This document shows positions 1,971 through 61,848 of a stretch of 64,000 nt of DNA, piece after piece. The stretch spans positions 84,657-148,656 of the forward strand of contig JARBUD010000006.1 in NCBI GenBank assembly GCA_029239875.1. Reading direction: 5' to 3'. Made by a program: the position numbers and the translations under genes. Within the stretch, counting starts at the first letter, position 1; each line of letters starts with the position of its first letter. The DNA comes from Xanthobacteraceae bacterium (GTDB lineage: Bacteria; Pseudomonadota; Alphaproteobacteria; Rhizobiales; Xanthobacteraceae). The notes under the pieces are model-generated. The model did no database searches, was not told where the DNA came from, and saw only the letters and a list, made by a program, of their open reading frames with translations.

Positions 1971-3293
1971 TCATACCGGTCCCATGACATAGGTGGGCAG
2001 CCAGGTGGCGATGCCCGGAAAGATGCTCAGTATGACGATGCCGAGCAGCATAAGCAGCACATAGGGCAGCGATCCGCTCAGCACCTGCTGGGCCGGTACC
2101 TGCGGTGCAATGGCCTTCACTACGAACAGGTTGAGCCCCACCGGCGGGGTGATGAGGCCGATCTCCATGTTGATCGTCAGAATCACCGCGAACCAGTAGG
2201 GGTCGAAACCCGAGGAGATGATGATCGGGTAGAGTAGCGGCGCCGACATCACGATGATGGCGACCGGCGGCAGGAACATGCCGGCCACCAGCAGAAACAG
2301 GTTGATCAGCCCCATCAGCACCCAGCGGTTCACCTCCAAGCTGGCGATGGCCCCCGCGACGGTCTGGGTGATGAACAGCGAGGAGAGGGCGAAGGCAAAG
2401 AGCTCGGCCGACGCCATGATCATCATGATCATGACGCTTTCGCGCAGGATGGACGAGAATATCTCGAAGATCGGCTTCGGCTGGAACAGCCGGTACATCA
2501 CGATGACCACGCCGAGCGTGAGGAAGGCACCCGCGCCGGCCGCTTCCGAGGGCGTCGCGACGCCGCCATAGAGCACGTAGAGCGTGCCGAGGATGATGAT
2601 CAGGAACGGTGTGACCTTCGGCAGCGCCGCGAGCTTCTGGCCGACGGTGAAGCGGTTGCTGCGCGTGCCGAAATCGAAATTCTTCCGGCGGCAGTCATAG
2701 AGCGCCCAGGCCATGAACATCGCCGTGAGCATGAGGCCGGGCATCACGCCGGCCAGGAACAGGCGACCGATCGAGGTCTCCGTGGCGATGCCATAGACGA
2801 TCATCGTCACCGAGGGCGGGATGAGGATGCCGAGCGTCCCGCCGGCGCAGATCGAGCCAGTGGCGACTGAAGCCGGATATCCGCGCTTGAGCATCTCGGG
2901 AATGCCCATCTTGCCGATGGCGGCACAGGTCGCCGGGCTCGAGCCGGTCATGCCGGCAAAGATGGCGCAGGCGCCGAGATTGGAGATCACCAGCCCGCCG
3001 GGGACGCGGTTCAGCCAGCGGTCAAGCGCCTCGTAGAGGTCCCGCCCTGCCGGCGTGGCGGCTACCGCCGCGCCCATGAGCACGAACATGGGGATCGACA
3101 CATAGGCGAGGTTGGCGATACCGGCGAACATGGTCTCGGCCAGTACGTCGAACACGCCGATGCCGTTGGCCAGCAGCAGGCCGGCGATCGCCGTGAGGCC
3201 GAGGGCGAAGGCGATGGGCATGCCGGTGGCCAGCAGGACGAAGAGCAGGCCGATGACCAGCAGGCCAGAGGACGTGGGGGAGAGGCTCATCAC
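1971..3293 (-). CDS. dctM: TRAP transporter large permease (DctM)
   Basis: 440 aa, multi-TM; GMPIAFALGLTAIAGLL, GSSPATCAAIGKMGIPEM motifs. Confidence 0.88.
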   Translation of the reverse strand: MMSLSPTSSGLLVIGLLFVLLATGMPIAFALGLTAIAGLLLANGIGVFDVLAETMFAGIANLAYVSIPMFVLMGAAVAATPAGRDLYEALDRWLNRVPGGLVISNLGACAIFAGMTGSSPATCAAIGKMGIPEMLKRGYPASVATGSICAGGTLGILIPPSVTMIVYGIATETSIGRLFLAGVMPGLMLTAMFMAWALYDCRRKNFDFGTRSNRFTVGQKLAALPKVTPFLIIILGTLYVLYGGVATPSEAAGAGAFLTLGVVIVMYRLFQPKPIFEIFSSILRESVMIMMIMASAELFAFALSSLFITQTVAGAIASLEVNRWVLMGLINLFLLVAGMFLPPVAIIVMSAPLLYPIIISSGFDPYWFAVILTINMEIGLITPPVGLNLFVVKAIAPQVPAQQVLSGSLPYVLLMLLGIVILSIFPGIATWLPTYVMGPV

Positions 3294-57797: not shown

Positions 57798-57874
57798 GGC
57801 CGCGTAGCTCAGCTGGATAGAGCAGCCGCCTTCTAAGCGGCAGGTCGCTGGTTCGAGCCCAGCCGCGGTCGCCA
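57798..57874 (+). tRNA. tRNA-Arg(TCT)
   Basis: ggccgcgtagctcagctggatagagcagccgccttCTaagcggcaggtcgctggttcgagcccagccgcggtcgcca; CCA encoded. Confidence 0.93.
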
Positions 57875-58128
57875 GCTAACCCTTTGATCTGTATAGCATA
57901 AGGGGAGGGGGCGGCGGTCGGGATCGGAGAACAGAATGGGCACATTCGCGGCCCTTTTCTGCATTTCGTGACAGAAAGTCCCGAGTTTTTCCCGAGCCAC
58001 GGGACGCCGAATCATCGGGGCGCCGCGTTCAAGGCGCTACCGCGCGCGCCCGCTGGCCGCCACCTTGACTCTCCCAATGGATGTTCTCATTCTGTTCGCG
58101 GGCGAGGGGCTCGTGATGGAAGCGGACG

Positions 58129-58347: not shown

Positions 58348-59031
58348 ATGTGCAACCTCTACAGCCACACCAGCAATGTCGAGGCGATCCGCGATCTCGT
58401 TGGTTCGCTGCGCAACCTCGCCGGCAATCTGGCGCCGCAGACCGGGATATTCCCGGACTATCCGGCGCCGATCGTTCGCACTGGCGCGGACGGTGAGCGC
58501 GAGCTCACCATGGCGCGCTGGGGCATGCCGTCGCCGCCGCAGTTCGGTGACGCGCCCGTGACGAACATCCGCAACGTCGCCTCGCCGCACTGGCGGCGAT
58601 GGACCGGGCCGGCGAGCCGCTGCCTGGTGCCGTTCACCAGCTTCAGCGAATACGCGCCGGAGCCGAACCCGGTCACGAAGCGCAAGGATGTCGTCTGGTT
58701 CGCCCTGTCAGAGGAGAGGCCGCTCGCCTTTTTCGCCGGCATCTGGACGCAGTGGAGCGGCGTGCGCGGCACAAAGGCCAACCCGGTCGTCGGCCTGCAC
58801 GACCTCTATGGCTTCCTCACCTGCGAGCCGAACGCGGTGGTGAGGCCGATCCACCCGAAGGCCATGCCCGTCATCCTCACGACGGCCGAGGAGCGCGAGG
58901 GGTGGATGCGCGCGCCCTGGAGCGAGGCCTGCGCGCTGCAGCGACCACTGCCGGATGACGGGCTGACGATCGTGTCACGTGGCGCGGCGAAGGAAGATCC
59001 CGCGACAGAAGCGGAGCCCACGCTCCTCTAG
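58348..59031 (+). CDS. SOS response-associated peptidase (SRAP/YedK/HMCES family)
   Basis: [17 protein letters not shown] with Cys2; [37 protein letters not shown]. Confidence 0.88.
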
Positions 59032-59216: not shown

Positions 59217-59606
59217 ATGCCCGTTCACATACATGTTTCGGATGAGACTATTATTGGTTTCACCGAACCTGCTCAAAGGCGGCTGCAAGAAGCCGGAGAT
59301 GCTTATGTCTCCTCCGTAATTGAAGAGGCATATCGCATCGAAGCTGGACAGAATACCTCCGGTGGGCAGGCCGAGATTACGCAGAGTATGGTTGATGATG
59401 CCGTTGTGGTCAGGCGTCACCGAGTTCCTAATCGACAGGGTGAGCGAACTAGCAAACTATTGAAAATCGGTTCAAGCGTTCTGAGTCTTCTCTCAGGCTG
59501 GATGTTTAGCCTCGATACATTTAGCACCCCTTGGTTGGCTATTCTTTTTTCATTTGTCGCCGCCCTAGCGTTTTTGACGCTAAGTCTCTCGATATTGCGG
59601 GAATAG
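59217..59606 (+). CDS. Hypothetical membrane protein with N-terminal histone-fold-like segment
   Basis: AQRRLQEAGDAYVSSVIEEAYRIEAG...AEITQSMVDDAVVVRRHR resembles histone-fold helix 2/3; C-terminal TM hairpin LLSGWMFSLDTFSTPWLAILFSFVAALAFLTLSLSI. Confidence 0.55.
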   Translation: MPVHIHVSDETIIGFTEPAQRRLQEAGDAYVSSVIEEAYRIEAGQNTSGGQAEITQSMVDDAVVVRRHRVPNRQGERTSKLLKIGSSVLSLLSGWMFSLDTFSTPWLAILFSFVAALAFLTLSLSILRE

Positions 59607-59608
59607 TT

Positions 59609-60208
59609 ATGATCGACAATGACCCGCGCCGTACCAAGGATAGCTACGGATACTTGCTTTGGACGTATCGTAGACGCGCCGGCCGTGTTGATTCGCTCTT
59701 GCGCATATATGCAGCGTTTGGCGTACTTGTGTCGGTTACAAGTACAGCTGCCTTGTTTCTAACTATTGTAAATATTGATCTGTCCTTCGCGCAGATGGCC
59801 CTCGTTTCTACCGCTGGCGTCGGTGCGGCGCTGGCGACACTTTCAGCAACTTTGTTGGTATTTCGGCGAGAGCTTCTTAATCGCAGCCGCGATATGGAGC
59901 GAGAGGATGCAGCATACCGGTTGATGATTGCATGGCATGAATTTGAGAGTGCCGCTAGAAACGCTCTAGCGACAGACGATGGGGAGCCCGAGACGACTCG
60001 TTCTGTCCGTTCGCTAATAGGCCATCTAATTACAGAAAATATTATCGATGCATTCGAGGCGGATACGCTTCAACTAGCTTTAACAGTGAGAAACCGAACG
60101 CTCCATTTTAACGAGGTGGAGGACGTCGGAGAGGTCGAATCATTGGTTATGTTCCTTAACTCGCTGGCCTCTCGTATCAGTGTCCACTCTTCGCACCGCG
60201 AGCGTTGA
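59609..60208 (+). CDS. Two-TM protein with C-terminal HEPN-like domain
   Basis: N-terminal TM pair; C-terminal helical region with RNRTLH (RNxxxH/Rx4H) in ALTVRNRTLHFNEVEDVGEVESLVMFLNSLASRI. Confidence 0.55.
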   Translation: MIDNDPRRTKDSYGYLLWTYRRRAGRVDSLLRIYAAFGVLVSVTSTAALFLTIVNIDLSFAQMALVSTAGVGAALATLSATLLVFRRELLNRSRDMEREDAAYRLMIAWHEFESAARNALATDDGEPETTRSVRSLIGHLITENIIDAFEADTLQLALTVRNRTLHFNEVEDVGEVESLVMFLNSLASRISVHSSHRER

Positions 60209-61323: not shown

Positions 61324-61848
61324 ATGTTAAGCAATGGGGAACGCCTAATCATATTTATGCTGACGGAACTTTATAAGCGCCTCGAAGTGGATGGCGACGT
61401 AGATGCTGAAAAGATCGCCTCCTGCATCTCACACGATGCCGAGTGGGCCCTACCGGTCCTGTATCCGACACTCCTTAAACATGAACCGTTGCCAGATCAC
61501 GTCAGGGAGACGTCAGATATACTAGATATGTATAGAATTATTCGTGCTAGCCTGCGAGATATGCAGCCCGCAGAGCGCCAGAAACTGTTGGATGAGCTAG
61601 GTCATGATGCGGACGATCTAGAATTTAGCGGTTTTGACGGCAACAATGACGCCCACTACGGTTGCTTGAGCGACTGGATGAACATCCTCGACCGCTATCA
61701 AGAGCTTCAAGAACTGCCGCACAATAGTCACTCATCTGCATCGCTGCCGCGTTACCGTTCAATGGTCCGCAGGTTCAACGAACGATGGGACGCCGTCAGA
61801 ACTCGGCACCTGGCGAGTGACGATCTCAAATACATAGTCACGGGATAG
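61324..61848 (+). CDS. YfbU family protein
   Basis: LSNGERLIIFMLTELYK, TSDILDMYRIIRASLRDM, EFSGFDGNNDAHYGCLSDWMNILDRYQELQ, LPRYRSMVRRFNERWDAVRTRHLASDDLKYIV. Confidence 0.75.
   Translation: MLSNGERLIIFMLTELYKRLEVDGDVDAEKIASCISHDAEWALPVLYPTLLKHEPLPDHVRETSDILDMYRIIRASLRDMQPAERQKLLDELGHDADDLEFSGFDGNNDAHYGCLSDWMNILDRYQELQELPHNSHSSASLPRYRSMVRRFNERWDAVRTRHLASDDLKYIVTG

Follow-up and report, generated by a model that had tools for sequence, protein, structure and literature searches.

A rare pair of adjacent genes encoding a histone-like membrane protein and a membrane protein with a predicted HEPN ribonuclease domain seems to form a hitherto undescribed toxin or anti-phage module

Two small adjacent genes of a Xanthobacteraceae bacterium, which we call A and B, were singled out in an initial annotation of the DNA sequence as a candidate membrane module of defence or toxicity. 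In order to establish what the two proteins are and what they might do together, we analyzed the window, the whole 64,000-nucleotide stretch of DNA in which the genes lie, and compared the pair with relatives from other genomes. The annotation had described two neighbouring open reading frames on the same strand, AT-richer than their surroundings. Both frames were found on the plus strand, in immediate succession (Table 1), and the three peptides quoted from them, AQRRLQEAGDAYVSSVIEEAYRIEAG, AEITQSMVDDAVVVRRHR and RNRTLH, were all present in the translations. The GC content was 0.491 for A and 0.513 for B against 0.65-0.69 for the surroundings, and GC3 was 0.46 and 0.51, compared with a GC of 0.69 and a GC3 of 0.88 for the upstream SRAP (SOS response-associated peptidase) gene and of 0.68 and 0.87 for the downstream methyltransferase gene. 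Neither A nor B of the window had a significant match in Pfam, NCBIfam, PADLOC, PHROG or PDB sequences, and the pair seems to constitute a toxin or anti-phage module that has not been described before.

Table 1. Coordinates of the features of the A-B locus and of the type-2 loci (window positions unless stated otherwise).
Feature	Position	Strand	Description	Basis
Gene A	59217..59606	+	129 aa; ATG 59217, stop TAG 59604-59606	ORF and translation
Gene B	59609..60208	+	199 aa; ATG 59609, end 60208	ORF
A-B junction	59604..59611	+	TAG, 2-nt gap, then ATG of B	Sequence
RNRTLH, predicted HEPN catalytic motif	60089..60106	+	B residues 161-166	8/8 conservation and model
A domain	residues 17-69 of A		Histone alpha2-loop-alpha3-like	AlphaFold2 model, Foldseek, hhalign
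attL	57826..57877	+	52 bp, 3' half of tRNA-Arg and just beyond; exact repeat at G000:C5:37803-37854
Type-2 pair, L010	L010 1480-2324		Two histone-like+2TM proteins, no HEPN
Type-2 pair, L019	L019 1046-1911	-	Two histone-like+2TM proteins, no HEPN

The pair had been assigned to a prophage-like region, and the 52-bp att repeat together with the phage genes near its second copy confirmed this assignment. The other prophage end (attR) was located on a second contig of this genome, immediately behind an integrase gene, and that contig also carries genes for a terminase, a portal, a head protease/capsid, a tape measure, a tail fibre J and a CI-like repressor. Most of the prophage lies on the second contig, the window stopping at the end of its own contig. 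The element is a tailed-phage prophage in tRNA-Arg, and its length would probably be ∼44 kb if the two contigs abut. Gene A starts 1.3 kb from attL, inside the prophage and among cargo-type genes. A second AT-rich cargo gene of this prophage (window 61324-61848, GC 0.51) encodes a YfbU-domain protein (phrog_6084).

We then searched for relatives of the pair. Among 398 genomes of the order, the search with B returned the window genome, three further genomes that carry the pair and a fourth hit (L005, see below), and an independent search of the same order with an A profile gave strong matches in the same four genomes and in one locus of a second type (type 2). A search of plasmids with A yielded relatives in Sinorhizobium (L006), Lactococcus (L007) and Rhodococcus (L008). 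In all three, a B-like gene directly follows A. A genome scan showed that an Opitutaceae MAG (Verrucomicrobiota; L012) also carries the pair. The pair set therefore comprised eight diverged A-B loci (the window, three further genomes of its order, L006, L007, L008 and L012) in four phyla: Pseudomonadota, Bacillota, Actinomycetota and Verrucomicrobiota. The pair is rare and scattered, being present in ∼1% of the genomes of the order and, within each of the three families surveyed, in a single species. Viral-contig collections, phage records and further plasmid searches gave no additional relative, though the window copy sits in a prophage. L005 (E value of 8e-5 to B) was rejected as a member of the pair, as it has no transmembrane (TM) hairpin and no A gene; it is a separate protein (L005 1237-1941) whose C-terminus (RNLIAH) is possibly HEPN-like. 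L011, L015 and L020 were left out, being chance hits to other proteins or reading frames, and L021-L022 were left out as equally marginal.

The annotation had treated A and B as one module, and the two genes did occur together in all eight loci, always in the order A then B and always abutting or overlapping. AAGGAG at the 3' end of some A genes can serve as a ribosome-binding site for B. Pairwise identity among the eight loci was 18-46% for A and 16-31% for B, and the distance matrices of the two proteins were correlated (r of 0.81; 16 of 5000 permutations as high), a value on which two distant pairs weigh heavily. As A and B recur together in eight diverged loci, their association is more than chance. 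The type-2 loci, L010 and L019, come from two Alphaproteobacteria and combine A with a histone-like protein that has two TM segments (2TM) and no HEPN domain.

The reading of B as an N-terminal TM pair followed by a C-terminal helical domain with RNRTLH was borne out: hydrophobic TM segments were found at about residues 36-54 and 60-78, and the HEPN domain follows this hairpin. The hallmarks of HEPN domains are an Rx4-6H motif, usually with N, D or H after the R, its placement at the end of helix 3, and a second conserved acidic residue, typically within Ex3[KR] (PMC3710099). B has an Rx4H motif with N, an acidic Ex3[KR] and a four-helix domain in which the motif stands at the end of helix 3. 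In the AlphaFold2 model, which is of moderate confidence (pLDDT of 77.9, pTM of 0.56), R161-H166 lies near the end of helix 148-167, with helix 173-198 after it. The R and H, whose conservation had been made a condition of the HEPN claim, are invariant together with the N in all eight B homologs across four phyla. The invariant columns include W109, E113, L158, R161, N162 and H166, the glutamate being that of Ex3[KR], which by our reading of the alignment is present in 6/8 homologs. Foldseek searches with the B model were led by HepT/HEPN toxins, with individually weak E values of 0.2-0.4, and Pfam HEPN_RiboL-PSP weakly matched five of the eight members (best E value of 9.6e-6, below the gathering score). 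Window B itself had no HEPN match in Pfam; HepT-like and DUF4145 matches also appeared among the homologs. The HEPN fold proposed for B thus held up, and the C-terminal domain is, on sequence and model, a probable RNA-cutting HEPN domain.

HEPN RNases are the active agents of many defence and toxin systems in bacteria. The surroundings of the homologs fit a toxin or abortive-infection role. Besides the window copy, the Hansschlegelia copy (L029) lies in a prophage setting, among phage-type genes, and three copies are on plasmids (L006, L007 and L008). On the Sinorhizobium plasmid, the pair is flanked by Septu-like PDC-M01A/B and a caspase-like protein (L006 584-3187 (-) and 6980-9685 (-)). This was the only locus with clear defence neighbours, and several chromosomal copies had no recognised ones. 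The reading that we prefer, and to which we give an even chance, is that A and B form a membrane complex that acts as a two-gene toxin or abortive-infection module and travels as mobile cargo.

The best structural match of B, HepT of the HEPN/MNT systems (for example, PDB 7ae2, 6m6u and 7bxo), is likewise a HEPN protein with an Rx4H-type motif encoded in a two-gene module. However, HepT is soluble and has a nucleotidyltransferase as its partner, whereas A and B are both membrane hairpins and the place of the MNT nucleotidyltransferase is taken by A, a 2TM histone-like protein. This comparison bears on the possibility that the pair is an addiction module resembling type II toxin-antitoxin systems, in which B would be a constitutive HEPN RNase toxin and A its membrane-anchored antitoxin, the module would stabilise the prophage or plasmid, and defence would be incidental. 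Such a module would agree with two small genes that abut or overlap, with the HEPN toxin fold of B and with copies on plasmids and a prophage. We nevertheless consider it somewhat unlikely, since both partners are membrane proteins, unlike those of HEPN/MNT systems, since A has no feature of a nucleotidyltransferase or of a DNA-binding autoregulator, and since both proteins of the type-2 loci are histone-like TM proteins and neither has HEPN.

The toxin or abortive-infection complex that we favor assigns a specific role to A, which had been proposed to combine a histone fold with a TM hairpin. The hairpin (about residues 74-96 and 105-128) was confirmed by two hydrophobic segments (about residues 81-99 and 109-127) and by the AlphaFold2 model, which is of moderate confidence (pLDDT of 75.7, pTM of 0.42). 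The histone claim stood for alpha2-loop-alpha3 but not for alpha1. The model has an alpha2 helix of 29 residues (17-45), a loop and an alpha3 helix of 14 residues (56-69) ahead of the hairpin, and histone alpha1 is cut down to about three residues (9-11), so that A lacks the complete alpha1-L1-alpha2-L2-alpha3 fold. A blind Foldseek search of the PDB with this model returned histone folds throughout the top 50 matches listed, among them H3, CENP-A, NF-YB, TAF and H2A.Z chains, with alignments mostly of ∼52 residues at 1.3-1.7 Å. A comparison of the model with viral structures gave no convincing match.

Could this likeness be coincidental, the soluble part of A being a generic helix-loop-helix? 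This explanation, which is compatible with any functional reading, draws on the match being confined to alpha2-alpha3 and on the weak Foldseek E values (0.5-1.6) against a PDB that is rich in histone chains. We consider it unlikely, because B, which is equally helical, retrieved no histones in its own top 50 matches and because profile comparison also pointed to histones. With hhalign, the A profile scored 20.8 against four archaeal histones, compared with 9.4 (sd of 1.8) for column-shuffled profiles, none of 150 reaching the score, and 11.3 for the reversed profile, although the hhalign probability was only 19%. The alignment was in the expected register, that of histone L1-alpha2. Cleaned alignments were used for these comparisons, as gappy ones inflated the shuffle scores too. 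On the basis of the model, the A domain is best described as an alpha1-less derivative of the histone fold.

A 2024 study of prokaryotic histones (Nat Commun, PMC11390915) describes the alpha1 face as the DNA-binding face of the histone dimer. As alpha1 is missing from A, the domain is unlikely to bind DNA, and one would expect it to have retained pairing. The soluble part of A contains 6 K/R and 11 D/E in the window, and it is acidic or neutral in 9/10 A proteins. A role of A in DNA packaging was rejected, given the absence of alpha1 and the mostly acidic domain, and we read the histone-like domain as a dimerisation device.

Some B proteins carry a domain that window B does not have. In Lactococcus (L007) and Rhodococcus (L008), B opens with an additional N-terminal domain, and the second gene of L010 and L019 encodes a domain of this kind and a TM hairpin. 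The profile of these N-terminal domains matched A with an hhalign score of 24.6 (null of 8.9, sd of 1.7; 0/150), which suits a shared dimerisation domain. A and B are thus in part paralogs with a common histone-like pairing domain and hairpin. Judging from sequence, the HEPN domain is an addition to one of two partly paralogous proteins, and in window B the pairing domain was either lost or never present. The A-like N-terminal domain of some B proteins would be a case of this domain being reused as a pairing device away from DNA. Tentatively, and with less confidence than we have in the toxin or abortive-infection reading, we propose an undescribed class of bacterial immune or toxin complexes at the membrane, where histone folds lacking alpha1 dimerise membrane hairpins and the effector is a plug-in: a HEPN RNase in type 1 and none that we recognise in type 2, where the membrane is perhaps the target. 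If this is true, histone folds have been recruited to bacterial immunity without any role in DNA.

The anatomy of the A-B pair, that is, its genes, hairpins and histone-like and HEPN domains, is well supported, and it suggests how the complex might work. In both proteins, K/R residues are concentrated outside the hairpin and are few in its loop, which predicts that both ends of A and B are cytoplasmic. The two proteins would thus sit in the inner membrane as hairpins, their globular parts facing the cytoplasm, and be joined in one membrane-bound complex via histone-type handshakes and TM helices. Through its alpha1-less alpha2-alpha3 handshake, A may pair with a second copy of A or, where the B homolog possesses a histone-like domain, with that domain. 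B would supply the predicted HEPN endoribonuclease, and dimerisation of HEPN is probably required for its RNxxxH site to act. A might keep B inactive, a silencing role that we assign to the first gene by analogy, or it might gather B subunits upon a disturbance of the membrane or envelope, for example, the entry of phage DNA. The freed or dimerised HEPN domain would then cleave RNA of the cell or of the phage at the membrane, halting growth or phage production.

Parts of this arrangement have precedents. Bacterial histone folds are a current topic, with several categories, membrane ones included, of undefined function. The study cited above has a "Transmembrane" category of prokaryotic histones which, like A, join a histone fold to TM segments and are said to lack the DNA-binding residues; its main text gives this category no HEPN partner and no function, and relative to the description there, A differs in having no alpha1 and in its gene being always paired (PMC11390915). 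Through the A-B pair, histone-like membrane proteins would gain a concrete partner and a likely function. No paper in the open-access literature searched combined the terms histone-fold, transmembrane and anti-phage. For the HEPN side, Anantharaman and colleagues (2013) described bacterial membrane HEPN proteins, proposed to cut RNA on stimulus, in three groups: a single WP-signature TM with a DUF4145-like HEPN, a single TM with an Abi2/SWT1 HEPN, and an N-terminal HEPN-2TM-Zn ribbon (PMC3710099). These proteins resemble B in having HEPN on the cytoplasmic membrane face, whereas B has a 2TM hairpin before HEPN and is always accompanied by a second gene. Ire1 is a membrane sensor with a cytoplasmic HEPN-related RNase (KEN domain) activated by oligomerisation. 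The likeness of B to the KEN proteins Ire1 and RNase L is by description, and those are single polypeptides with a kinase domain.

Csx28 of type VI-B CRISPR, which is linked to a HEPN-like motif, is likewise a small membrane protein in antiviral defence, but it works with Cas13b and has no histone-like partner. It forms an octameric pore (PMC12669027), and by extension the histone-like domains could assemble the hairpins into an oligomeric pore that is itself the effector, HEPN being regulatory or RNA-binding, as may hold for Csx28-type pores. The lack of HEPN in L010 and L019 implies that the TM-histone part can stand alone, and Pfam returned SLATT_4 (E value of 0.044) and 8xMP (E value of 0.11), both under the Pfam cut-offs and the latter in one homolog. 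We regard a pore effector as decidedly unlikely, since every HEPN-bearing B keeps RNxxxH with its N and the acidic residue, which argues for catalysis. That the pair is a superinfection-exclusion or envelope-stress membrane pair of the prophage, independent of RNA cleavage, is very improbable: it adjoins attL with other cargo in the window prophage, but most copies are on plasmids or on chromosomes outside obvious prophages, and the HEPN active-site motif is invariant. With the toxin or abortive-infection complex as the preferred reading, a compact two-gene module with a clear predicted catalytic motif joins the candidate defence systems.

Finally, the SRAP gene upstream of the pair in the window (58348-59031) has a counterpart at L010, where an SRAP-like gene (2391-3182 (-)) adjoins the type-2 pair. 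The two loci perhaps share a prophage cargo site.
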